The notes below the pieces were generated by a model. That model was not told where the DNA came from and ran no database searches. It worked only from the letters and a program-made list of their open reading frames with translations. A stretch of DNA of 64,000 nt from Candidatus Sulfotelmatobacter sp. (GTDB lineage: Bacteria > Acidobacteriota > Terriglobia > Terriglobales > Acidobacteriaceae). Below, piece after piece: positions 3,401 to 31,890 of this stretch (positions are counted from its first letter, which is position 1; each line of letters begins with the position of its first letter). The stretch covers positions 1 to 64,000 of the forward strand of contig JASHNU010000080.1 in assembly GCA_030041475.1 (NCBI GenBank). The letters are read 5' to 3'. A program made the translations under genes and the position numbers.

Positions 3401-3784
3401 AGCTCTGTGGTATTGAAAACCGGGCAGATCGCGTGTTGAAACTGCCCGATGCTTCTGGGCCCAGAATCTTCGAGCTTCTTCAGGTGCAATCCTGGAGAAG
3501 CTCAACTTTTTTCCGCGACCAGGGAGGCCGTTCCACCCGTAAAACGTCCGTGCAGGGCGCGCGCTCCACAGAACCCAAGAATTCCTGACGTGGACGAATT
3601 GCCTGGGGGTACAGATCGCAGGCCGAATCGGCGCACTCAGATGAAAATTCTTTCATGTTGTGAAAGCTACTGAAATCCCTGTATAGTCTTCGCCGCGCTC
3701 GAAGTTGGAAATAAGGCCTCGTTTTACGTTATCCCCCGAACGATTTACTGTCACATACCTGACCGCAACCAGGGAGAATTGAGC
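3401..3784 (+). other. Intergenic region with a candidate regulated promoter
   Basis: 384 bases without a convincing gene between the first phosphoesterase and the PQQ-like protein. The proximal half shows nothing recognisable. The distal part carries iterated TGAAA/TTTCA half-sites and a -10-like TATAGT, described separately. Confidence 0.6.
3642..3687 (+). promoter_or_regulatory. Candidate operator TGAAA-N4-TTTCA plus promoter
   Basis: TGAAA-ATTC-TTTCA at 3642-3655 is a palindrome, and further TGAAA half-sites occur at 3661 and 3671, so half-sites recur about every 9-10 bases. A -10-like TATAGT lies at 3682-3687, with a weak -35 (TTGTGA, 3658-3663, 18 bp spacer) overlapping the sites. The same palindrome at the same distance precedes the PQQ-like gene at 18618. 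The function is inferred from position only. Confidence 0.4.
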
Positions 3785-5380
3785 ATGCCCCGTTTCATCC
3801 GTTGGACTTCGGTCTCGCTTCTAGTGACACTGGCTGCCAGCATGCTGGCTGCGGCCCAGGTGTCGGTTACCACCTACCACTACGACAATTACCGCACGGG
3901 CTGGAATTACAGCGAGTCTGTACTCACAGTTGCCGCCCTGCAGAGTTCGACGTTCGCGGTGCTGGGCAAGATCACGCTCGACGATCAGGTGGATGCCCAA
4001 CCGTTAATCGTGCCCGGTGTCACTATCACTGCCGGCAATTTCCAGGGCGTGCACGATGTGGTGTATGTGGCCACTGACAACAACACCATCTACGCCATCG
4101 ATGCGGATAAGGGCACGGTGCTCCTGAACCCGAATTTTGGGCCACCGGTGGTCCGCCCGTTGGGTTGCGGCAAGAACAATCCAGACGTGGGCATCAACTC
4201 GACTCCGGTCATTGACCTGAGCAGTAATACGTTGTACGTAATCATCTACACGCAGCAGTCCACCGGCCCGGCATATTTTATTCACGCTCTCGACCTGGGC
4301 AGTCTGACCGACAAAGTCACGCCCCAGTTGGTGGCCGCCTCTCATACGCTCGACAACGGAACCACGTACACCTTCAACGCCACTTACCAGCGGCAGCGTC
4401 CCGCGCTCTTGTTGGCGAATGGAAATGTGTACGCGGGTTTCGGCAGTTTCTGTGATCTTTCTCCGAATCTATCGCGAGGCTGGCTTCTGGGATGGGAAAC
4501 GGGAACTTTAACTCCCATCGAGGACAATCAGATCCTTGACACGCAGGCGACATCGGCAAAGAATTTTTTCCTCTCCTCGATCTGGATGTCGGGTTACGGA
4601 CCCGCCGCGGATGACTCCGGCAACATTCTGTTCGTCACCGGCAATTCCGATCCGAGTGGCACAGCCTACGACGGTGTAACCGACATTGAAGAAAGCACGA
4701 TCGCGGTATCGCCGGATCTGAGCACGGTGGTCGACTTGTTCACTCCCAGTAACGTGGCGAGCCTGGATGAACACGACAATGATTTCGGTTCTGGTGGGGT
4801 GATGGTTCTCCCCGATCAGCCCGGTTCCATTCCGCATCTGGCAGTAGCCGCGGGCAAGACCGGACAGATGTTCTTTATGAACGAGGACGATCTCGGCGGA
4901 TTCTCCACCACGGGCAACAATGTGCTCGGCACCTACGATATCGGCGCCTGCTGGTGCGGAGAGTCCTATTTCGTCGATCCGGTGGATGGAAACGCCCGGG
5001 TGGTCAGCAGCGGCGGGACCAGCGTCATGGTGTGGGAAGTGCAGACCTCCACAACTCCTTCGCTGACCAATGTCACGAGTTCTCCGGCGATCAATGTACA
5101 CAATAACGGTTTCTTCACGACGGTTTCGTCCAATGGAACCGCCAGTCCTATCATCTGGGCGCTGGCGCGGCCAGCCCCGGGAGTTCCTGCCCTCGATCTC
5201 TACGCTTTTGCTCCCGACCTGGGAGGAACCACTATGACGCAACTTTGGAAAGGCGCCGCCGGAAGCTGGGTAAAAGGCGGCACGAACCCGAACATCGTTC
5301 CCGTCGTAGCCAACGGTAAGGTTTACGTAGCGTCGTACAAGGAACTTGCCATCCTCGGATTGAAATCCAAGGCACGTTAA
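3785..5380 (+). CDS. Secreted PQQ-like beta-propeller protein
   Basis: 531 aa from the ATG at 3785, which has AGGGAGA 7-8 bases upstream; a TTG two codons earlier is the alternative. A signal peptide (about 1-25, ending AAAQ) is followed by the paralogue signature TYHYDNYRTGWN and repeated propeller strands such as VVYVATDNNTIYAIDAD. The fold resembles PQQ-dependent dehydrogenases and BamB, but I see no evidence of cofactor binding, so an enzymatic role is not claimed. Related proteins occur at 16559 and 18618. It ends 55 bases before the second phosphoesterase and is probably co-transcribed with it. Confidence 0.78.
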   Translation: MPRFIRWTSVSLLVTLAASMLAAAQVSVTTYHYDNYRTGWNYSESVLTVAALQSSTFAVLGKITLDDQVDAQPLIVPGVTITAGNFQGVHDVVYVATDNNTIYAIDADKGTVLLNPNFGPPVVRPLGCGKNNPDVGINSTPVIDLSSNTLYVIIYTQQSTGPAYFIHALDLGSLTDKVTPQLVAASHTLDNGTTYTFNATYQRQRPALLLANGNVYAGFGSFCDLSPNLSRGWLLGWETGTLTPIEDNQILDTQATSAKNFFLSSIWMSGYGPAADDSGNILFVTGNSDPSGTAYDGVTDIEESTIAVSPDLSTVVDLFTPSNVASLDEHDNDFGSGGVMVLPDQPGSIPHLAVAAGKTGQMFFMNEDDLGGFSTTGNNVLGTYDIGACWCGESYFVDPVDGNARVVSSGGTSVMVWEVQTSTTPSLTNVTSSPAINVHNNGFFTTVSSNGTASPIIWALARPAPGVPALDLYAFAPDLGGTTMTQLWKGAAGSWVKGGTNPNIVPVVANGKVYVASYKELAILGLKSKAR

Positions 5381-16558: not shown

Positions 16559-18331
16559 ATGCGATTCCTCCACCGCCAGGTAGTGCGTGCGCTATCCATT
16601 TGGATGAGCTTAGCGGGCATCTTCGTGCCGCAAGGCATGGGTCAGAGCTGCGTCGCCGTCACTACGTATCACAACGACAATTTCCGCACGGCCCAGAACC
16701 TGTCTGAAACGGTGCTCACTCCGGCCACAGTCAGCAGCGTGATGCGAATGTTTTCCACTAAAACAGTGCTCGACGGATGGTCGGTCGCGCAGCCACTCTA
16801 TCTGCCCCAGACTCCCATCAATGGCGGCGTGCATAACGTGGTATTCGTGGCGACCCTGAATAACAGCGTATATGCTTTCGATGCCCAGTCGGGAATCCTG
16901 TATTGGCATTGGCAGGGGGCGTTGGGGCCGCCCGACACTACACCGTTTACGGCAGCGACCGGCTGTACGGACTCCAACTTTGGGATGAACCCAAGCGGTG
17001 GAGCTGGGATCGTAGGAACTCCGGTCATCGATACCTCGATTTCGCCGCCGGCCATCTACTTCGTCACCAAGGAATTTGACAACGGCACCACCCACAACCT
17101 GTACCTGCACGCCGTTGACACCTCAAGCGGCAACGAACTGAGCGCCCCAATTGCGCTGGCTGGCTCGGTGCTGAATCAATCAGGCGCGACGGTGACATTT
17201 TCCGCCACGAACCAGATGTCACGCCCCGCTCTGCTGCTATCGAACGGGACGATTTACGTGGGGATTGGGTCGGTGGGATGCAGAGAAGTTTCAAATTACG
17301 GCTGGGTGATGTCCTATACGTTTTCGATCGCAAACGGATTCGTGCAGCAAAATGTGTTCAACACTACGCCTGACCTGGCGGCTGCCGGGGGCGGGCCTCC
17401 CTACGCTAACGGCGGGATTTGGGGCGCGGGCGGAGGTCTGGCGGCCGATGCCAGCGGCAATATCTACTTTGATACCGCCGACGCCAACAATTATTACTTG
17501 AATCCCAAGGGCTGGCAGGGAACGGATTTCGGAGACAGCATCGTCCAGCTAACTCCAAGCCTGGGCGCACCCACTTCATCGGCGAACTATTTCACCCCCT
17601 ATAACGATCGCCTCCTGTACAACAACGATCTCGACCTCGGCTCTACTGGTGTGTTGCTGCTACCCGACCAGCCTGCAGGCAGTACGCTGCCCCCGCATAT
17701 CTTGATCGGCTACGGCAAGGCGGAAGAGATCTATGTGGTCAACCGGGATAATATGGGTGGTCATGCCGGACCCAAGGGGCCCAACAACATTTTGCAGGAC
17801 GTTCCCAATCCGACCACCGAATCGTGCGCGACTGGCAACGTTCAATTTACACAATGTGCGCAACAAAAAGGCACTTGTGGTTGGAACGCACCCGTGTTTT
17901 GGAACGACAATATTTATTTTTCCTCGAATCCGGGGCCGCTCCTCTCTTATGCGTGGAATCCCTATAGCGCAAGCATCCCTCCAACTCCTCTCGCGGCATG
18001 CCCCACGATAGAACCTGGGTTTTCCAGTGGCAACTACACCTCCTCTGGAAGCCCGTCCGTGTCTGCCAATGGGAACAGCGGGGGACTTCTCTGGGTGGTC
18101 ACCTGGGTAAACCATCGAGTGGCAGCGTTGCGGGCATTTGATGCAACGACCTTGGCCCAGTTGTTTGAAGCCGGCGTGGGCAGCGCAGGCGGCTATCCGA
18201 CGCCGACGATTGCCGATGGTGAGGTTTTCGTGGCCACCAAGGAACATCTGTACGCCTTCGGCATCAAGGGTGAATCGGGATGCAAAAGCTCCGACAAGGC
18301 TGCCGGAGTTCGAGCCGCGCCCGCCCGTTGA
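16559..18331 (+). CDS. Secreted PQQ-like beta-propeller protein
   Basis: 590 aa; the ATG has GAAGG upstream. A signal peptide (about 1-28, ending GMGQ) precedes the paralogue signature TTYHNDNFRTAQN and propeller strands such as VVFVATLNNSVYAFDAQSG and HILIGYGKAEEIYVVNRDNMGG. It is homologous to the proteins at 3785 and 18618 but longer by insertions. Several Cys residues fit an oxidising, extracytoplasmic location. The annotation is by fold only; PQQ binding and catalysis are not shown. Confidence 0.77.
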   Translation: MRFLHRQVVRALSIWMSLAGIFVPQGMGQSCVAVTTYHNDNFRTAQNLSETVLTPATVSSVMRMFSTKTVLDGWSVAQPLYLPQTPINGGVHNVVFVATLNNSVYAFDAQSGILYWHWQGALGPPDTTPFTAATGCTDSNFGMNPSGGAGIVGTPVIDTSISPPAIYFVTKEFDNGTTHNLYLHAVDTSSGNELSAPIALAGSVLNQSGATVTFSATNQMSRPALLLSNGTIYVGIGSVGCREVSNYGWVMSYTFSIANGFVQQNVFNTTPDLAAAGGGPPYANGGIWGAGGGLAADASGNIYFDTADANNYYLNPKGWQGTDFGDSIVQLTPSLGAPTSSANYFTPYNDRLLYNNDLDLGSTGVLLLPDQPAGSTLPPHILIGYGKAEEIYVVNRDNMGGHAGPKGPNNILQDVPNPTTESCATGNVQFTQCAQQKGTCGWNAPVFWNDNIYFSSNPGPLLSYAWNPYSASIPPTPLAACPTIEPGFSSGNYTSSGSPSVSANGNSGGLLWVVTWVNHRVAALRAFDATTLAQLFEAGVGSAGGYPTPTIADGEVFVATKEHLYAFGIKGESGCKSSDKAAGVRAAPAR

Positions 18332-18617: not shown

Positions 18618-20255
18618 ATGCAAGTGCTCAAGGTGTCCGTTCCCCGGCTCGTCTTTACCGCTTTCCTCCTCGCCTGCTTTCTCCTGAACAGTGCATCTCG
18701 GGCAAGCTCGCAGAACGTATTAACCTATCACTACAACAATGCCCGCACCGGACTCAACGCAGCCGAAACCACTCTCACCCTGGACAACGTGAATTCGACC
18801 ACGTTTGGCAAGTTATTCACCCTCCGGGTTGACGGCAAGGTCGACGCCCAGCCTTTGTATCTGTCAGCCGTTCCCATTCCGAACCATGGTACGCACAACC
18901 TTCTCATCGTGGCCACCGAACACGACTCGGTCTACGCTTTCGACGCCGACACCGGCGCTCAAATCTGGCACACCAGCGCACTCCAGACTGGCGAAACTCC
19001 CTCCGATGATCGTGGCTGCCTGCAGATCAGCCCCGAAATCGGAATTACCTCGACTCCCGTCATCAGTCGGCCCGAAGGGTCGAACGGCGTTATCTATGCC
19101 GTCGCCATGTCCAAGGATTCTTCGGGCAATTACTATCAGCGCCTCCACGCTCTCGACGCCACCAGCGGCGATGAACTCTACAACGGCCCGGTCGACATTG
19201 CCGCCGAATTTCCCGGCTCGGGCGATGACAGCTCCGGCGGCTTCGTCGTTTTCGATCCCGCCCAATATGCCGAGCGTGCCAGCCTTCTTCTCATAGACAA
19301 TCTGGTTTACCTGGCCTGGACTTCGCACTGCGATATCCGCCCCTATACCGGCTGGATCATGGGTTACAACCTGACTACCCTCGCCCAAGAGACTGTCCTT
19401 AACGTCACTCCCAACGGCCAGCAGGGCTCTATCTGGGGTTCCGGCACCGGCCTCGCCGCGGACAATTCCGGCAATATCTTTTTTCTCGACGCCAACGGCA
19501 TCTTCGATACCACGATGAATTCCGGGGGCTTTCCCGACAGCGGCGACTACGGGAATGCCTTCATTAAGCTTACGACTGCCAAGGGTCTTGCCGTCGCCGA
19601 CTATTTTGAAATGTACAACGGCCCCACCGAAAGTGATGATGACCTCGACTTCGGCTCCGGCGGCGCTATTCTCCTGCCCGACATGCAAGACGCTTCCGGC
19701 ACCACCTGGCAACTCGCCGCTGGCGCCGGTAAGGATACCAATCTTTACCTCGTCAATCGCAACTCCATGGGAAAGTACAATTCCGCCAGCAACAACATCT
19801 ACCAGGAACTCTCCGGAGTCTTGCCCGGCGGCATGTGGTCGATGCCCGCCTTCTTCAACGGCCGGCTTTACTACGGCCCCACCGGCCAGCCTATCTCTGC
19901 CTTTCAGTTTAAGGACGCGCTCCTGCTCGCTGCTCCCGTGGCCAAAACCAACAACAGCTTCCGCTACCCCGGAGCCACTCCCAGCATCTCCTCCAACCAA
20001 AGTGAGAACGGGATCGTGTGGGCGGTGGACAACTACACCTACGCCATCTTGTACGCCTACAACGCCATCACCCTGCAGCCGTTATATAACAGCGATCAGG
20101 CCGCGAATGAACGCGATCGCTTTGGCGCCGGCAACAAGTTCATCACTCCCCTCATCATCAACGGCAAAGTCTACGTTGGTACCACCACCGGCGTCGGCGT
20201 CTTCGGTCTGCTGCCCACCGGCAGCAATAGCCGCTCGAGTCAGCCATCCCAGTAG
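18618..20255 (+). CDS. Secreted PQQ-like beta-propeller protein
   Basis: 545 aa; ATG with CCGGAG 8 bases upstream. A signal peptide (about 1-31) leads to TYHYNNARTGLNAAE, the signature shared with the 3785 and 16559 proteins, and to propeller strands LLIVATEHDSVYAFDADTG and ATPSISSNQSENGIVWAVD. Third codon positions are unusually rich in C, which opens long shadow frames such as 19555-20310. This differs from the flanking paralogues and could mean different expression level or history. No catalytic residue can be assigned. Confidence 0.77.
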   Translation: MQVLKVSVPRLVFTAFLLACFLLNSASRASSQNVLTYHYNNARTGLNAAETTLTLDNVNSTTFGKLFTLRVDGKVDAQPLYLSAVPIPNHGTHNLLIVATEHDSVYAFDADTGAQIWHTSALQTGETPSDDRGCLQISPEIGITSTPVISRPEGSNGVIYAVAMSKDSSGNYYQRLHALDATSGDELYNGPVDIAAEFPGSGDDSSGGFVVFDPAQYAERASLLLIDNLVYLAWTSHCDIRPYTGWIMGYNLTTLAQETVLNVTPNGQQGSIWGSGTGLAADNSGNIFFLDANGIFDTTMNSGGFPDSGDYGNAFIKLTTAKGLAVADYFEMYNGPTESDDDLDFGSGGAILLPDMQDASGTTWQLAAGAGKDTNLYLVNRNSMGKYNSASNNIYQELSGVLPGGMWSMPAFFNGRLYYGPTGQPISAFQFKDALLLAAPVAKTNNSFRYPGATPSISSNQSENGIVWAVDNYTYAILYAYNAITLQPLYNSDQAANERDRFGAGNKFITPLIINGKVYVGTTTGVGVFGLLPTGSNSRSSQPSQ

Positions 20256-25369: not shown

Positions 25370-25837
25370 ATGGCTAGTTCATCCCGCTGGCGGTCGCTCA
25401 AGCGATTTGTCTTTTCGGTCTTATCGCGAAACGGAGTCGCAGTGTATTCCCGCTTCCCGATTTTCGGTGCCCTGCGCGCCTCGGTCGCCGTCATCCGGAA
25501 CAATCAGCTCATCCTGGTCATCGAGCGCAGCGACGGCCGCGGCCTGTCACTGCCCGGAGGATTTACTCATCCCTGGGAAACACCCGAGCAAACCGTACTG
25601 CGGGAGACCGTCGAGGAAACCGGATTGCACGTAAACCAATCCACGTTTATGTTCGAATATAAGACCACCCTAGACGTCCCTTGCGTTATTACAGTTTTCC
25701 AGCTGGAAGCATCTGGCGAGCTGCGCGATTCCTGGGAAGGCTCGCCGCGCTGGCTTCCTTTGGCTGAGATCCAGCCCCGGCTGCTTCCCAGTCAACGGCA
25801 GATCATCGATCGACTTCTACCTGCACAGAATTGCTAA
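25370..25837 (+). CDS. Nudix hydrolase
   Basis: 155 aa from the ATG at 25370, preceded by GAGGAG; the frame extends upstream to 25265 without a better start. The Nudix box is intact apart from one relaxed position: Gly-x5-Glu-x7-Arg-Glu-Thr-x-Glu-Glu-x-Gly-Leu across GGFTHPWETPEQ and TVLRETVEETGL. It should cleave a nucleoside-diphosphate-linked substrate with a divalent metal; the substrate is unknown. Its TAA stop (25835-25837) overlaps the stop codon of the convergent antiporter gene, leaving no room for a separate terminator. Confidence 0.87.
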   Translation: MASSSRWRSLKRFVFSVLSRNGVAVYSRFPIFGALRASVAVIRNNQLILVIERSDGRGLSLPGGFTHPWETPEQTVLRETVEETGLHVNQSTFMFEYKTTLDVPCVITVFQLEASGELRDSWEGSPRWLPLAEIQPRLLPSQRQIIDRLLPAQNC

Positions 25838-27141
25838 GCGGTCATTCGCCCTGCAGACGCAGCCCCTAAGGTGTGCACTGGTGCTTCCTGCGCCGCAGCC
25901 CTTGCCGGCGCCTCGCGCAAGACGCTGTCGGGGCAAATCCAGTCCAGCAGCGGCGTGGCCATGAAGGTTGTGGCCAGGGCCATAATCACCATCATGCAGA
26001 ACAACGCCGGCGAAATAACCTTGATGTCGAGGCCGATATCGAGGATCACCAGCCCCATCAGCCCGCGCGTGTTCATCAGCGTGCCCAGTCCGGCAGCCTG
26101 CCGCCAGCTCATTCCGCTGAACCGCGCCGCTGCGATGGAACCTCCCAGCTTGCCTGTGGCCGCTACCAGGATGATGAGCCCGCAATAAAACCACATCGTC
26201 GGGCCTTTAACCAGACCGATATTGGTACGCAGCCCGACAAATGCGAAGAACAGTGGCAACAACAGCGTCACCGTGACGGTTTCAAAACGGTCGAGCACGT
26301 AGCGGACAAATTTCGGTTCCTTGGGCATGATCGCGCCCATCAGGAACGAACCGAAAAGAAGATGAATTCCCAATCGCTCGGTACACAAGGCGGAGGCCAG
26401 CGCCAGCAGGATCAGAAATGCCATGGCGTTTTCGCTGATCTCGCCATGCCTGCGAAACATGTGCTCGAAGCCGCGCAGCAGGTAGCGCACGCCGTATACC
26501 ATGACCAGGCCGAACAGCACGATCCCGCCCAGCGTCATCCAGATGGAACCGGTCTGGTGTGCCGAGCGGATCAGCACAACAATGTAAGCGAGAATGCACC
26601 ATCCGCTCACGTCATCGACCGCAGCGGCGGCGATGGCTACGCTTCCCAGCATGCTCTTCACCAGGTTCCGGTCGATGAGAATGCGCGCCAGAACGGGAAA
26701 TGCCGTGACGCTCATGGCCGCACCCATGAACAGGGCGAAATTGGTGAACGACACGCCGTCGTCGGAAAGCCGCGGATAAAGATAGACGGCCAGCAGCGAA
26801 GCCAGCAGGAACGGAGCCGTGATGCTGACGTGGCTCACCAGAACGGCGGCGTGGCTCTGATGCTTCAGTTCCCTGGGATCAATCCTCAGGCCGACCAGAA
26901 ACATGAAGACGACCACGCCCACCTGGCTCAGGGCGTTCAGAAACCCCAAGCTCGAAGGCGGAAATAAATAGGCCGATACCTGCGGCGCAATCCAGCCCAG
27001 CAGCGAAGGACCCAACAGAATGCCGGCGAACATTTCGCCCACCACGCGTGGCTGGTGAAAATGGCGGAACAGGTTGCCGATGACGCGGCATACCGCCAGA
27101 ATGACCGTGATCTGAAGAACCAGCGTGAACAGGTTCGGCAT
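25834..27141 (-). CDS. Cation:proton antiporter, CPA2 family
   Basis: 435 aa from the ATG at 27141. About 12 hydrophobic helices cover residues 5-405. Typical CPA2 features are HQPRVVGEMFAGILLGPSLLG, LARILID, AAAAVDDVSGW with the paired Asp of the ion-binding helix, and MNTRGLMGLV. It probably exchanges K+ or Na+ for H+ at the inner membrane. There is no TrkA-N domain; a short 30-residue cytoplasmic tail ends the protein. The start overlaps the preceding gene's stop as TGATG, so translation is probably coupled to the 27141-27725 gene. Confidence 0.9.
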   Translation of the reverse strand: MPNLFTLVLQITVILAVCRVIGNLFRHFHQPRVVGEMFAGILLGPSLLGWIAPQVSAYLFPPSSLGFLNALSQVGVVVFMFLVGLRIDPRELKHQSHAAVLVSHVSITAPFLLASLLAVYLYPRLSDDGVSFTNFALFMGAAMSVTAFPVLARILIDRNLVKSMLGSVAIAAAAVDDVSGWCILAYIVVLIRSAHQTGSIWMTLGGIVLFGLVMVYGVRYLLRGFEHMFRRHGEISENAMAFLILLALASALCTERLGIHLLFGSFLMGAIMPKEPKFVRYVLDRFETVTVTLLLPLFFAFVGLRTNIGLVKGPTMWFYCGLIILVAATGKLGGSIAAARFSGMSWRQAAGLGTLMNTRGLMGLVILDIGLDIKVISPALFCMMVIMALATTFMATPLLDWICPDSVLREAPARAAAQEAPVHTLGAASAGRMTA

Positions 27142-27725
27142 CAACGGACTCCCTTGGGCACAGCAACAACCTTCCGTTCAGCCCGGAAGGCTACTACGTT
27201 GCATGACGGGCAATCGGTCACTGAGAAGGTGCCGTTCAGAACATCGGCCCCTGCCTGACGGTCCAGGGCAGCGAGCAAGGTAAGCGGGTGGGCGCTGTTG
27301 CAGCGACCCTCGGCTGCAGCTCCTGCCGCCGGATATTCTGCCGCAAGACTTTCGGAGGATGTCAGGGCAGCTCGCAGCGTGCTTCCCTCAAGCGTGCCGG
27401 AACCGCTGATCTTCATTGGGCTCTGCGATTCGTTGGGAACGCTCAACGTGAAGTTCTTGCCGGATTGCGAAATCGCGAGCGTTTTAACTGCCGCAGCCAG
27501 AACCTGGTCGCAGGGCGCGAAAGTCGTCTGCGTGGGCGCGACCTGCACCCTCCATGTTCCGTCGATTGCCGCTGGAGCCGTCAAACCCCGTCCAGCCTTA
27601 AGCACTCCCACCAAACCTAGCAATGGGACAACCACCAGCAGGGCGTAGGCCAGAACGAAATTTGTTTTCGAACCTGCCACAGTTGCAATCACCGGATGGC
27701 GAATAGGGTCTTCGCCAGAAAGCAA
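27141..27725 (-). CDS. Unknown single-pass membrane-anchored protein
   Basis: 194 aa if started at the TTG at 27725; the start is uncertain because no ribosome site is visible and the upstream stop is only 4 bases away. One helix (about 22-44, FVLAYALLVVVPLLGLVGVL) anchors a soluble domain with four or five Cys residues (FAPCDQ, GRCNSAH, DCPSCN), probably outside the membrane. I do not recognise the family. It sits between halogenase-type genes and the antiporter with overlaps on one side and a tiny gap on the other, so it is a member of the same operon. Confidence 0.62.
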   Translation of the reverse strand: MLSGEDPIRHPVIATVAGSKTNFVLAYALLVVVPLLGLVGVLKAGRGLTAPAAIDGTWRVQVAPTQTTFAPCDQVLAAAVKTLAISQSGKNFTLSVPNESQSPMKISGSGTLEGSTLRAALTSSESLAAEYPAAGAAAEGRCNSAHPLTLLAALDRQAGADVLNGTFSVTDCPSCNVVAFRAERKVVAVPKGVR

Positions 27726-27729
27726 GGGC

Positions 27730-29076
27730 TTATGCCGGACGGAATGCGTTGGCCGTCAGATCGCCCAGCAGCTTGTGCCAGGGATGCTTTTCGTTGCGCT
27801 CGACCTCGGCAACCATGTTGCGCATCTTCTCCAGCACCGGCGGCGTTGCGTCATCATACACGTCGCCCTGCAGGAGCTTCAGCACATCCAGACGATACCT
27901 GGTGTCATTGATGAAATATGTGAACAACACGTTGAGCCGGTAGTAGACCGTGATGAAGTCGTACCAGTTCTTAGTACCCAGCCGCAGCGTGTTCTCGTAG
28001 GTGGCAAAACTCTCGCGCGAGAAATCATTCTTCTCGAGCGCTGCCAGAATGTCTTTGTGCGCGAAGCGCGAGCTGTTCAGCGCGATGCTCACTCCGGTCG
28101 AAAAGATGGGATCGACGAAGCGTCCCGCATCGCCGACCATCAGGAAACGGTCGCCGCACAGCTGCTTCATGGCGTAGCTGTAGTCGCCCTCATCCTTGAA
28201 TGGACGGATACGGTCGGCCTTGCGCAGCGTCTCTTCGATCATGGGACGCGTGCCCACTGAACTCCAGAAAAACTTCTCGCGGTCTTCCTTTGACTTGGCG
28301 AAGTTCTTTTTCTGCGTCACCACGCCGAGGCTAGTGACGTCGTCGGTGATCGGAATCTGCCAGATCCAGGTGTTCGAAATCGGCAGGAAGTGAATGTAGA
28401 TGTAGTCCAGGTTCGTGTCGCGCTTGGCGAAGACCTTGCGATCGTAGCCGGCAAACCAGGAGTGAATCGCGTACTGGTCGAAAACCGTGTCCTGAATCTT
28501 GAGCTTCATCTGGTTGCCCAGGAAGGTATTGCGCCCGCTGGCGTCGACCACCATCTTTGCGCTAACGCCCAGTTGCTTCGAGCCCATCTGGAAGCGAACG
28601 ATCGGCTCCTTGGGGCCGAAATCCACCTCGCTCACCTTGATACCGTCGTAAACCGTCGCGCCCAGTTTGTGCGCATGCTGCAGGAGCAGCAGGTCGAACT
28701 TGCCGCGATCCACGTGGTAAGTGTGATTCTTGTCTACACCCGGCTGCTGGCGCTCTTCGAAGCGAATGTCGACGTTGCAATCCGCAGACAGTCCCTCGAG
28801 GTCGTGCACGTAAGGCGTCTTCTTGTCGTCGGTCGTCCAGACGGCGCCGTACTTCTTGGGGAATTTTGCGGCTTCCATCTGCGGCAGGAAATCGAGATCC
28901 TTGAATACTCGCGTCGACGATGGAACGAGCGACTCGCCGACGTGCGGCCGCGGGAACAGTTCGCGCTCGAACACCACACAGTTCACCCCGGCCTTGGCCA
29001 GGTAGCAGGCCATGGACGATCCCGCCGGCCCGCCTCCGATAATGGCTACATCAAAATCCGGTTTCGTGATAACCAA
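27730..29076 (-). CDS. Flavin-dependent halogenase-type oxidoreductase, copy 2
   Basis: 448 aa from a TTG at 29076, preceded by GGGAGGA; the frame runs on to 29124 but the TTG aligns with the start of the neighbouring paralogue (VITKPDFD / VLTKPDFD). The FAD motif GGGPAGSSMA is at residues 11-20, followed by PRPHVGESLVPS. The halogenase markers TWIWQIP (WxWxIP) and FVDPIFSTG (FxxPxxSxG) are present, as is KKYGA with a possible catalytic Lys. It would use reduced flavin from an unlinked reductase to halogenate an unknown substrate. About 70% identical by eye to the adjacent copy. Confidence 0.8.
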   Translation of the reverse strand: MVITKPDFDVAIIGGGPAGSSMACYLAKAGVNCVVFERELFPRPHVGESLVPSSTRVFKDLDFLPQMEAAKFPKKYGAVWTTDDKKTPYVHDLEGLSADCNVDIRFEERQQPGVDKNHTYHVDRGKFDLLLLQHAHKLGATVYDGIKVSEVDFGPKEPIVRFQMGSKQLGVSAKMVVDASGRNTFLGNQMKLKIQDTVFDQYAIHSWFAGYDRKVFAKRDTNLDYIYIHFLPISNTWIWQIPITDDVTSLGVVTQKKNFAKSKEDREKFFWSSVGTRPMIEETLRKADRIRPFKDEGDYSYAMKQLCGDRFLMVGDAGRFVDPIFSTGVSIALNSSRFAHKDILAALEKNDFSRESFATYENTLRLGTKNWYDFITVYYRLNVLFTYFINDTRYRLDVLKLLQGDVYDDATPPVLEKMRNMVAEVERNEKHPWHKLLGDLTANAFRPA

Positions 29077-29126
29077 CGCTTCCTCCCAGAATTTCTTTGG
29101 CTCGCTCCAAGCTTCGCTTTGCAAAG

Positions 29127-30497
29127 CTACATCTGACTGGCTTGCTTGAAGGCGTCTACAGTCATATCGCCCAGCAGCTTGTGCCAGGGATGCTTCACAT
29201 TCTGCTCGACTTCCGAGACCATCTTCTTCATCTTGTCGAGCACCGGCGGCGCGGCATCGTCGTACACGTCCCCTTGCAGCAGTTTCAAGACATCTAGCCG
29301 ATAACGCGGGTTGCCCACGAAATAAGTGAACAGGACGTTCAACCGGTAATACACCGAGATGAATTCGTACCAGTTCTTCGTGCCCAGGCGGAGCTTGGTT
29401 TCATAGTCCTTGAAGCTCTCGCGCGAGAAGTCGTTGCGCTCCAGCGCGCTCAGAACGTTGATGTGCGCAAAGCGCGAGCTGTTGAGCGCGATGCTGACGC
29501 CGGTCGAGAAAATCGGGTCCACAAACCTTCCCGCGTCGCCCACCAGCATGAAGCGGTCACCGCAGAGCTGTTTCATGGCGTAGCTGTAATCGCCTTCATC
29601 CTTGAAGGGATTCATCTGGTCCGCCACCTGTAATTTCTCGCGCAGCAGTGGGCGCGTTCCCACCGCATTCCAGAAGAACTGTTCGCGATCCTGCTTCGAC
29701 CTGGCGAAATTCTTCTTCTGCGTCACCACTCCGATGCTCGTAACCGAGTCGGTGATCGGAATCTGCCAGATCCAGGTGTTGGAGATGGGCAGGAAGTGAA
29801 TGAAGATGAAATCCAGCTGCGCGTCTTTCTTGGCGAAGGCGCGGCGGTCGTAACCGTCGAACCAGGTGTGAATGGCATACTGATCGAACACCGGGTCTTT
29901 GATCTTCAGCTTCATCTGATTGCCGAGGAACGTGTTGCGCCCGCTGCAATCGATGACCATCTTGCAACTCACGCCCATTTCGCGGTTGCCCATCTTGAAG
30001 CGCACGATGGGCTCTTTCGGACCGAAATCCACTTCATTCACTCTCACGCCTTCGTACACCGCTGCGCCTAGTTTGTTGGCATGCTGCAATAGCATCAGAT
30101 CGAACTTGCTGCGATCCACGTGGTAGGTGTACTCGCGGTCCACGCCTTCCTGCTGGCGCTCGTTGAAGCGGATTTCAACGTGCGATCCGGGATTGATCTC
30201 TTCGTTATCGAATCCCCCCTGGAAGGTCATGTCATACGCGCCCTGGTCTTCGGCGGTCCAGGCGGCGCCAAACTTATGGGGAAACTTGGCTTCCTCCATC
30301 TGGTCGAGAAAATCGAGGTCACGAAACACTCGCATCGCTGAGGGCACCAGAGATTCGCCCACGTGCGGCCGAGGGAATAATTCACGCTCAAAAATCACAC
30401 AATTCACTCCCTTTTTCGCCAGGTAAGCGCCCATAGAGCCGCCTGCGGGTCCGCCGCCAATGATGGCTACGTCGAAATCCGGCTTTGTAAGAACCAA
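29127..30497 (-). CDS. Flavin-dependent halogenase-type oxidoreductase, copy 1
   Basis: 456 aa from a TTG at 30497, with AAGGAG about 7 bases upstream. It has the same layout as its tandem copy: GGGPAGGSMG FAD loop, PRPHVGESLVPS, TWIWQIP, GDAGRFVDPIFSTG, and KFGAAW in place of KYGAVW. The halogenase-diagnostic motifs are intact, but no partner flavin reductase or biosynthetic enzyme is adjacent, so the substrate is open and a hydroxylase role is not excluded. It is the first gene of a four-gene minus-strand operon with a promoter at 30599-30628. Confidence 0.8.
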   Translation of the reverse strand: MVLTKPDFDVAIIGGGPAGGSMGAYLAKKGVNCVIFERELFPRPHVGESLVPSAMRVFRDLDFLDQMEEAKFPHKFGAAWTAEDQGAYDMTFQGGFDNEEINPGSHVEIRFNERQQEGVDREYTYHVDRSKFDLMLLQHANKLGAAVYEGVRVNEVDFGPKEPIVRFKMGNREMGVSCKMVIDCSGRNTFLGNQMKLKIKDPVFDQYAIHTWFDGYDRRAFAKKDAQLDFIFIHFLPISNTWIWQIPITDSVTSIGVVTQKKNFARSKQDREQFFWNAVGTRPLLREKLQVADQMNPFKDEGDYSYAMKQLCGDRFMLVGDAGRFVDPIFSTGVSIALNSSRFAHINVLSALERNDFSRESFKDYETKLRLGTKNWYEFISVYYRLNVLFTYFVGNPRYRLDVLKLLQGDVYDDAAPPVLDKMKKMVSEVEQNVKHPWHKLLGDMTVDAFKQASQM

Positions 30498-30598
30498 TGT
30501 ATTACTCCTTTGGAGGACTTAAAAAAGATGGGGTGCTGTCTTAGGCTTTAGTGCCTTAGGTTGTGGGGGAATGACCTACGTATACCACTTGTGCAATC

Positions 30599-30628
30599 AC
30601 TATGACCGGTGTCTGCAATCCCTGTCAA
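30599..30628 (-). promoter_or_regulatory. Candidate promoter of the halogenase operon
   Basis: On the minus strand a perfect TTGACA (30628-30623), an 18-base spacer and CATAGT (30604-30599) lie about 95 bases before the TTG start of copy 1. Confidence 0.55.
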
Positions 30629-30791
30629 GGAGACCTTTTACTCCATTTCAGTGCTCCCCCTTGGTAATCACGGGGTGGTTACCGCCGCCCGGGCAGCACA
30701 GGTGTAGTAAAGGACTCTCCGCGCTGGTGGCCTTCCGGCGCGTGTTCAGATTGCTTGCGCCCAGTTTTCCTTTTCGCAAAACTGCCCTCAT

Positions 30792-30809
30792 ATGGCACTC
30801 TAGTGCCAT
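30792..30809. promoter_or_regulatory. Palindrome ATGGCACT-CT-AGTGCCAT
   Basis: Two 8-base arms complement each other perfectly across a 2-base spacer, 18 bases in all. A possible dimer binding site in the region between the LuxR gene and the halogenase operon. The sequence TAGTGCC also occurs near 30549. Confidence 0.4.
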
Positions 30810-30827
30810 TTACGAGGCTTGGCGTGT

Positions 30828-30841
30828 GAGACTAAAGTCTC
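30828..30841. promoter_or_regulatory. Palindrome GAGACT-AA-AGTCTC
   Basis: Two 6-base arms with a 2-base spacer, 19 bases downstream of the first palindrome. It shares the 2-base spacer but not the arm sequence. Confidence 0.3.
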
Positions 30842-31062
30842 TCCACCGTGTGCCTCTGGACGGGTTCGTCAAAGGCACTGCAGGCAACACCGAACTGGCG
30901 TTTCCAATTCAGCCGTTTCGCGTCGCTCGATGCCCCCAGTCTTGCGCCACTACTGAGTGAGCAGTTTACAGAGGCACGCTGATGCTCAGCACACGTTGTT
31001 CGGCATCGTGCCAAGTCGTCAATTACCCGCTGTCTTGGGAGATCAGGGAGACATAAATAAGA

Positions 31063-31890
31063 ATGCCGCAGCCTCTTACTTTCTTGCCGGGGAACTCCGA
31101 AAGAATACGGGTACTCGCCGCCGACAGCACGCGCATGAGCAGCCAGTTGCTGGCCGAAGCGTTGGCGCAGGAGCGTCAGTTCGAGGTTACCGGCATGGAT
31201 CCTCAACCATCGTCCATTCTGGAGGCGATCGCGCAACAGAAGCCGGATATCGTGCTGGTCAGCTCGGCTCTGGAAGGCTCGGCCACGCTAGGCTTTGAGC
31301 TCACTCGCCGGGTCCGCAGCTCGCACGCCTCGACGCGCGTCATCCTTCTTATGGACAGCTCGACCCCATCTGCAGTGGTGGAGGCGTTCCGTTGCGGAGC
31401 GCAGGGAATTTTCTCGCGCACCCAGTCCGCGAAGACGCTGGCCAAGTGCATCAGGAGCGTTCATCAGGGCCAGGTTTGGGCCAACAGCGCGGAACTCACT
31501 TTTTTGCTGCAGGCTCTGCGTGAAGCTGCTCCCATGCGCATGGTGGATTCGCACGGTGATGCCATCCTTTCCAAACGTGAGCAGGACGTCGTTCATTGCG
31601 TGGCCGAGGGACTCTCGAACCGCGAGATCGCTAGCCGGTTGAAGCTCACTGAACACACGGTGAAAAATTATCTGTTCCGCATCTTCGACAAGCTGGGTGT
31701 TTCCAGTCGCGTGGAAGTTGTGCTTTACGCCTTCCGTTTCCGCAAGGATCTCGTCGGATCTCCGTCACCAAAGGAGTCTGCTGAGTCGGTGGGTCCGGTG
31801 GGCAAGCCGGCCAAATCCAACGGGAGCGCGCCGAGGCCAGTCCGACCGGTAGATGCTCTGCCTGAGCTCGCCGTTCGAGGCCGCAGCTAA
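31063..31890 (+). CDS. LuxR/NarL-type regulator with degenerate receiver domain
   Basis: 275 aa. A receiver-like domain (about 15-135) precedes a LuxR helix-turn-helix (about 168-225; LSKREQDVVHCVAEGLSNREIASRL...HTVKNYLFRIFDKLGV) and a Pro/Ser-rich tail. The receiver lacks the phosphorylation residues: PDIVLVSSAL has Ser where the phospho-Asp should be, the acidic pair is reduced to one Asp (VLAADS), and the conserved Lys position reads GIFSRT. It therefore probably does not respond to a histidine kinase. It is divergent from the halogenase operon and may regulate it. Confidence 0.85.
   Translation: MPQPLTFLPGNSERIRVLAADSTRMSSQLLAEALAQERQFEVTGMDPQPSSILEAIAQQKPDIVLVSSALEGSATLGFELTRRVRSSHASTRVILLMDSSTPSAVVEAFRCGAQGIFSRTQSAKTLAKCIRSVHQGQVWANSAELTFLLQALREAAPMRMVDSHGDAILSKREQDVVHCVAEGLSNREIASRLKLTEHTVKNYLFRIFDKLGVSSRVEVVLYAFRFRKDLVGSPSPKESAESVGPVGKPAKSNGSAPRPVRPVDALPELAVRGRS

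Follow-up and report, generated by a model that had tools for sequence, protein, structure and literature searches.

In a 64,000-nucleotide stretch of DNA from Candidatus Sulfotelmatobacter sp. (contig JASHNU010000080.1, positions 1 to 64,000; hereafter the window, C51:1-64000 of a 4.63-Mb genome in 112 contigs), four open frames lie in tandem on the minus strand in the order hal1-hal2-ORF3-cpa2, encoding two flavin-dependent halogenases, a small membrane-anchored protein and a CPA2 cation/proton antiporter (Table 1). We think it fairly probable that this operon provides the halogenation step of a split, carrier-bound pyrrole pathway together with a membrane module. The enzymes are of a known kind but newly arranged, as two pyrrole-type halogenases in tandem that probably act in trans and are joined to what is likely an antiporter in two parts. 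An earlier, sequence-only reading of the window had already proposed two halogenase-type proteins with an anchored protein and a CPA2 antiporter, and the four frames, their motifs and their Pfam matches bear this out. It had also taken the genes for a stand-alone unit, a view that has to be given up in light of the relationship of the enzymes to PltA, Mpy16 and ChlB4, the presence of proline-to-pyrrole genes on another contig of the same genome (C60), and a halogenase-ORF3-antiporter block that lies inside such a cluster in a relative (L176).

Judged by their sequences, Hal1 and Hal2 are members of the PltA/Mpy16/ChlB4 group of halogenases, a type of chlorinating enzyme that acts on the building blocks of antibiotics. 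The two proteins are 75% identical and both contain GGGPAG (the FAD motif GxGxxG) as well as the WIWQIP (WxWxIP) and FVDPIFSTG (FxxPxxSxG) sequences that the sequence-only reading had correctly picked out, all of which we take to mark halogenases. The Pfam Trp_halogenase profile scores 98.8 and 105.6 bits for Hal1 and Hal2 (cut-off 21). Among proteins of solved structure, the closest full-length matches of Hal1 in a PDB search are PltA (5dbj, 1.4e-173), Mpy16 (5buk, 1.7e-169) and ChlB4 (7fco, 1.3e-164), while Hal2 matches ChlB4 first (3.3e-174), followed by PltA and Mpy16. The lysine of FPxKxGAxWT and the halogenase motifs are invariant in 14 of 14 aligned relatives, and the catalytic-lysine position of Hal1 aligns with a lysine of the PltA chain; we presume that the catalytic lysine of both enzymes is the equivalent of PltA Lys73. 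ChlB4, which acts on a 6-methylsalicylyl group bound to an acyl carrier protein, is here assumed to be a variant B enzyme. PltA, Mpy16 and Bmp2 are classed as carrier-dependent variant B halogenases in PMC8407142, according to which the tetrabrominase Bmp2 is cut back to dibromination by the substitutions Y302S, F306V and A345W. When these positions are mapped on the assumption, taken from the alignment, that PDB chain and paper differ by 3 in their numbering, Hal1 and Hal2 have T/I/W and PltA, Mpy16 and ChlB4 have S/V/W. The window enzymes thus resemble the latter three, of which PltA and Mpy16 are dihalogenases of carrier-bound pyrrolyl groups, in full-length homology, halogenase motifs, catalytic lysine and small-or-aliphatic/Trp residues at the di/tetra positions of Bmp2, and differ from them in being encoded by two diverged tandem genes that share an operon with ORF3 and an antiporter gene, in having the pyrrole-forming genes on another contig, and in a hal1 position that is filled by two lineages.

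Other assignments of the two enzymes were considered and rejected. A tryptophan halogenase is suggested by the Pfam name only, as PrnA matches the FAD part alone (about 3e-7), and p-hydroxybenzoate hydroxylases match the FAD motif alone. A Bmp2-like tetrabrominase does not fit the three Bmp2 positions. No NCBIfam model scored above its cut-off among the best 25 of 44 and the best 25 of 52 matches of Hal1 and Hal2, respectively, the best of those listed being CmlS (158.9 and 175 against a cut-off of 900). Enzymes of P. protegens and W. vitaminophila fall inside the same halogenase tree, which includes no tryptophan halogenase. A search of plasmids returned one relative at 61% and none closer. 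The host genome has three PltA-type halogenases, two on C51 and a third on C94 (62%; G000:C94:10108-12912, L060). The third is followed by a P450-like gene with 62-65% matches to P450 regions in nonribosomal peptide synthetase (NRPS) clusters of five other genomes (G018, G010, G004, G013 and G025), and the NRPS on C60 of the host genome also contains a Pfam p450 region.

Genes for the formation of a carrier-bound pyrrole were found on the 24-kb contig C60 by searching the host genome with the dehydrogenase and ligase of another locus, L085, to which the C60 proteins are 71% and 66% identical; no close halogenase is on this contig. The dehydrogenase and ligase genes are followed by a discrete carrier, NRPS modules (A-T; P450-A-T-TE; and, flanking the border between two fetched stretches, C-A and A-T-TE pieces) and polysaccharide-export genes. 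The best PDB match of the dehydrogenase is a prolyl-ACP dehydrogenase (4irn, 4.6e-143), and the best single-enzyme match of the ligase is an L-prolyl-carrier ligase (6o6e, 1.3e-108), which ranks behind multidomain synthetase entries whose scores sum two stretches. The ligase pocket follows that of P. protegens PltF (NHAPLHFDLSV...WYSVPS...GPTETNVC), as two other C60 A domains do not. The discrete carrier (C60:8647-8916) matches a 'peptidyl carrier protein' (2my5, 3.5e-7) and PltL (2n5h, 2.4e-4). As in plt- and mpy-type halopyrrole pathways, a ligase, a prolyl-carrier dehydrogenase, a discrete carrier and a halogenase are, by homology, all present in one genome; unlike in those pathways, the genes are split over at least two loci, and the C60 part lies in an NRPS region that runs on into polysaccharide-export genes. 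The NRPS region (L147/L148) also holds a polysaccharide-deacetylase gene, with Poly_export and Wzz genes after it, a neighborhood hinting at an acylated or decorated polysaccharide or at shared regulation.

The distribution of these genes in other genomes links the halogenases to the pyrrole genes. When 61 genomes were searched with hal1, 43 gave a match at 1e-3, mostly weak, and 22, the host genome included, had a close halogenase (E below 1e-180, with no other genome better than 1e-50). A PltE-like gene (E at most 1e-100; both thresholds were set after earlier matches had been seen) was found in 21 of the 61, at 51-77% identity, the best match being only 52-53% identical in G022 and G034 and partial in G009 and G016. 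Both genes occur in 19 genomes, the halogenase only in 3, the PltE-like gene only in 2 and neither in 37 (Fisher 9.4e-11). Within the genus the corresponding counts are 19/3/2/13 (Fisher 1.9e-5), and 13/1/1/5 for genus genomes at least 90% complete (p 0.002). Fourteen of the 16 genomes with tandem halogenases, again counting the host, have a PltE-like gene.

In some genomes the linkage is physical. A 10.6-kb contig from another family of the class, L176, carries halogenase, ORF3, antiporter and dehydrogenase genes on one strand and ligase and carrier genes on the other (the carrier with two unread bases), all these functions within about 7 kb, and constitutes the most direct evidence for what the halogenase-ORF3-antiporter block belongs to. 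Halogenase, dehydrogenase, A and PCP are likewise together in L085 and L087, and PltE-like and carrier genes stand beside the halogenase in L077/L052. In the Bryobacterales locus L082, a partial ligase, a carrier (recognized by eye) and a dehydrogenase are divergent from two halogenases and a CPA2 gene. Between these pyrrole genes and halogenases, L082:2216-4754 contains frames that by eye are SGNH-like and MBOAT-like, as if an acyl group were moved onto an envelope polymer, and GDSL, O-antigen ligase and sulfotransferase genes lie near L052. In G004 the halogenase and the dehydrogenase share a contig at a distance of about 58 kb; the roughly 32 kb fetched between the halogenase operon and the pyrrole genes (L177 and L178) gave no match to the query set.

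Conservation of the four-gene order elsewhere, which the sequence-only reading had put forward as a check on its proposal, was found. Neighborhoods were fetched for 19 of the 21 other genomes with a close halogenase (all but G007 and G027). Thirteen have tandem halogenases, 12 of them in the full hal-hal-ORF3-antiporter order, which argues that the arrangement is not due to chance; in the thirteenth (L059, G018) only the helix of ORF3 is left, joined in frame to the antiporter. The remaining six have a single halogenase with neither ORF3 nor antiporter in the fetched stretch (L051 having almost no left flank), and of these single genes two, in L052 and L054, adjoin carrier and acyl-CoA-dehydrogenase genes (two of the latter in L052) and one, in L049, adjoins an NRPS. 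A scan of genome contigs, comprising the best 80 of 146 loci with CPA2 and ORF3 counted in stored flanks of up to 7 kb on each side, includes some of the same genomes, so that the two counts are not independent. It placed a CPA2 gene at 21 of 34 acidobacterial loci, with ORF3 at 19 of those; the two without a full ORF3 are L068 (helix fused to the antiporter) and L082 (none detected). The linkage of halogenase and antiporter is thus kept across many genomes with changing flanks.

In a halogenase tree of 108 rows built by a quick method, the hal2 genes of the operons form one clade of 18 rows, and the hal1 position is occupied by two lineages. Type A (the window and its relatives, 11 rows) lies near hal2, and type B (L055-L059, L075 and L080) clusters with the enzymes of L085 and L087, each a single halogenase next to dehydrogenase, ligase and carrier genes. 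The approximately unbiased test rejected the placement of all hal1 genes in one clade (p 5e-44; 57 rows, the group having been named after the first tree was seen). Either two different halogenases were therefore paired on more than one occasion, or hal1 was replaced.

The cpa2 product matches Pfam Na_H_Exchanger (189.4 bits) and, below the curated cut-off of 238.3, the NCBIfam CPA2 family model TIGR00932 (155.7 bits). It has the Asp-Asp and Lys of NapA, whose roles we assume to apply here, and we presume from the Asp-Asp that it is of the electrogenic type. Among acidobacterial and gemmatimonad copies the first Asp is missing only in L059, L082 and L089. A structure model of the fused L068 protein (pLDDT 83) has the fold of NapA (Z 42.4, rmsd 3.2, 383 residues aligned) and, at lower score, NHA2 (Z 35.8), with its ORF3-derived N-terminal helix (residues 3-30) left unmatched by either. 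The modeled fold of this homolog and the motif of the window copy are therefore NapA-like, and the difference from NapA is an extra N-terminal helix, presumably supplied in trans by ORF3 or, in L059 and L068, fused; NHA2, going by the title of PDB entry 7p1i, is likewise extended by an N-terminal helix.

ORF3 itself has one predicted helix and four conserved cysteines, two of them invariant and two present in at least 90% of 21 sequences, and no Pfam or NCBIfam match at 1e-3. Its structure model (pLDDT 84) comprises one helix and a small barrel, the latter comparing at Z about 10-11 with avidins, designed barrels, an amine dehydrogenase domain, Cap15 and PvdP. Since these scores are spread over several unrelated barrels, some of them designed, and the best Foldseek E is 1.3e-3, the likeness to avidin/calycin-type barrels and the PvdP N-terminal barrel appears, on the model, to be one of fold only, and ORF3 differs from these proteins in its membrane anchor, its four cysteines and its sequence (9-20% identity in the rows listed). 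In a search of 299 genomes of the class, with 12 candidates scored per genome in the rows listed, ORF3 was found 10 times in 9 genomes, adjoining an antiporter gene every time. In two separate lineages the barrel is lost and the ORF3 helix continues in frame into the N-terminus of the antiporter (L059:11159-12634 and L068:8465-9949). This constant adjacency and the two fusions suggest that ORF3 and the CPA2 protein form a two-part antiporter, an arrangement not described in the papers found.

Beyond the Acidobacteriota, 11 of 46 PltA-type loci have a CPA2 gene in their stored flanks, nine from Actinomycetota, one from Gemmatimonadota (L089, with a diverged ORF3) and one from Pseudomonadota (L140, 32% identity). 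Eleven other genomes that were searched have 1-5 such CPA2 genes each, which puts chance linkage at about 1% or less, and at an assumed background of 1% the binomial value for 11 of 46 partly related loci is about 1e-12. In most of the linked antiporters of Actinomycetota the first Asp is missing, and a search of their stored flanks detected no ORF3; recruitment there was, by these sequence features, probably independent. The antiporter would have a reason to be in the operon in that pyrrolomycins and marinopyrroles are proposed to be protonophores (PMC12942903 and PMC12670696). By analogy, self-protection against a halopyrrole is a plausible role for it. The accessible part of PMC8269204 mentions neither antiporters nor Acidobacteria, and titles and abstract openings of the literature on halogenases, halopyrroles, antiporters and Acidobacteria, in a search mostly outside subscription papers, gave no description of the operon.

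From these comparisons, the most likely substrate of the operon's enzymes is a pyrrolyl-carrier NRPS starter, which they would halogenate in trans. By homology, the PltF-like ligase of C60 would load L-proline onto the discrete PltL-like carrier and the prolyl-carrier dehydrogenase would oxidize the prolyl group to pyrrolyl-S-carrier. Hal1 and Hal2, using FADH2 from an unlinked flavin reductase, O2 and a halide, would then halogenate the tethered ring on the C60 carrier, probably once or twice, and the C60 NRPS would take up the halopyrrole. The one Flavin_Reduct-family match of the host genome is on C64, hence unlinked to the operon. The antiporter would be a NapA-like Na+(K+)/H+ exchanger with ORF3 as an accessory subunit, and the pair would most likely guard ion and pH balance against a lipophilic, protonophore-like product. 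What the sequences show are the homologies, motifs and gene order, the co-occurrence across genomes, the complete cluster in L176, and the pairing and fusion of ORF3 with the antiporter. Homology and genomic context support the pathway step well; the substrate, halide, product, number of halogens and action in trans, as well as the subunit role of ORF3 and self-protection, are inferences. A more far-reaching version, which we regard as tentative and rather doubtful as a whole, has the ORF3 helix serving as an extra transmembrane helix and its periplasmic barrel binding or sensing a small lipophilic ligand, the two-part antiporter (a plain CPA2 protein in other phyla) having been recruited by halopyrrole makers against their own protonophore-like products and the halogenation step having moved out of the cluster to act in trans.

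Several observations weigh against a split halopyrrole pathway with a dedicated membrane module. The halogenases (C51, C94) are not adjacent to the pyrrole genes (C60) in the host genome, and the discrete C60 carrier is not among the host's PF00550 matches, its assignment coming from weak PDB matches and an IDSL motif. Two genomes with the tandem operon (G007 and G028; 86 and 88% complete) and one with a single halogenase (G011, 98% complete) lack a PltE-like gene, G025 (96% complete) has a whole PltE/F/L and NRPS set (L156) and no halogenase, and some genomes have only one half. Because genomes and loci are related to one another, the Fisher and binomial values look more significant than they are. 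Of eight actinobacterial genomes, three have the linked CPA2 protein as their closest relative of the window antiporter, and five have a closer one elsewhere in the genome. In three of the ten class-wide places (L173, L174 and L175), the 14-20 kb of sequence examined contain the ORF3-cpa2 pair and no halogenase. The contig of L173 has the same length (355,069) as that of L087, so L173 probably lies about 70 kb away from the pyrrole cluster of L087. By eye, a receiver-domain-like gene lies within a few kilobases of each of these three pairs.

Since ChlB4 is the top PDB match of Hal2, and is as similar as PltA to both enzymes, the substrate could be another tethered aromatic, such as a 6-methylsalicylyl-like polyketide or an aromatic residue on an NRPS carrier; the host genome offers 12 PF00550 carrier-domain matches besides the discrete carrier, some of them in the NRPS modules of C60 and in long frames of C43. 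We hold this to be unlikely, as PltE-like genes track the halogenases across genomes, PltE/F/L-type genes (PltE-like and carrier genes in L077/L052) stand beside halogenases in L085, L087 and L176, and type B hal1 groups with the L085/L087 enzymes. A free-standing unit acting on untethered substrates and coupled to ion transport would agree with the conserved four-gene order and with the window frames and profile matches, in which, as the sequence-only reading had stated, no biosynthetic gene adjoins the operon; it is very improbable given that the nearest solved relatives are PltA, Mpy16 and ChlB4 (the variant B label of PltA, Mpy16 and Bmp2 following PMC8407142) and that carrier, ligase and dehydrogenase are present in the same genome. 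As the earlier reading held, ion transport is a genuine part of the arrangement, but other phyla too have CPA2 genes close to PltA-type halogenases, and ORF3 and antiporter are also paired where no halogenase lies nearby. The pair could be an ordinary housekeeping Na+/H+ exchanger, placed in the operon by chance or regulatory convenience, as would fit the three places without a halogenase and the fact that the window antiporter is the sole NapA-like CPA2 match of its genome at 1e-15. We give this possibility some weight and lean away from it, because the linkage persists over many genomes with changing flanks, recurs in L176 and extends to CPA2 genes in other phyla. A tethered pyrrole as the substrate and a dedicated membrane module remain our preferred explanation.

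Table 1. The halogenase operon and its divergent neighbor in the window.
Feature	Position	Strand	Description
hal1	29127..30497	-	PltA-type FADH2-dependent halogenase, 456 aa, TTG start; profile and PDB matches
hal2	27730..29076	-	Second PltA-type halogenase, 448 aa from TTG 29076; profile and PDB matches
ORF3	27141..27680	-	Single-pass anchored small beta-barrel protein, 4 conserved Cys; alignment and structure model
cpa2	25834..27141	-	NapA-like CPA2 cation/proton antiporter, 435 aa, Asp-Asp and Lys motif
Divergent intergenic region hal1/NarL-like gene	30498..31062		Likely operon promoter, from gene anatomy
NarL/LuxR-type response-regulator-like gene	31063..31890	+	Divergent from hal1; candidate regulator

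The TTG start of hal1 is preceded by a Shine-Dalgarno-like AAAGGAG at 30511-30505 and that of hal2 by GGAGG. The spacing reported by the sequence-only reading stands for the 50 bases between hal1 and hal2 and for the TGATG in which the ORF3 stop and the cpa2 start share one base, and is doubtful for its 4-base gap between hal2 and ORF3, which requires the ORF3 start to be TTG 27725. GTG 27680, which leaves 49 bases, is the likelier start on comparison with homologs, because 5 of 12 homologous frames (L041, L042, L043, L046 and L047) are open for at most three codons upstream of an ATG just before the helix; in the remaining homologs the start nearest the helix was chosen by hand and is not independent evidence. 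The operon promoter is likely within the divergent intergenic region. Four relatives (L042, L044, L045 and L046) have a homolog of the NarL-like gene some 0.5 kb upstream of hal1, and the gene is a possible regulator of the operon. The receiver-like domain of its product reads PDIVLVSSALEG at the site where, as in NarL, the phospho-acceptor Asp is expected, and the receiver is possibly atypical, as far as its residues indicate. Farther to the left of the operon, three scattered frames (3779-5380, 16559-18331 and 18618-20255) have TYHxxNxRTxxN near their start.

What appeared to be an orphan halogenation unit can now be tested as part of a split halopyrrole pathway, in a soil lineage most of which is uncultured. 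Cluster mining that expects the halogenase inside the pyrrole cluster would miss pathways of this type. The analysis also nominates ORF3 as an antiporter subunit. The recurrent association of halogenase and antiporter, seen in four phyla (with one locus each in two of them), could be the means by which bacteria that make protonophoric halopyrroles escape harm from their own products.

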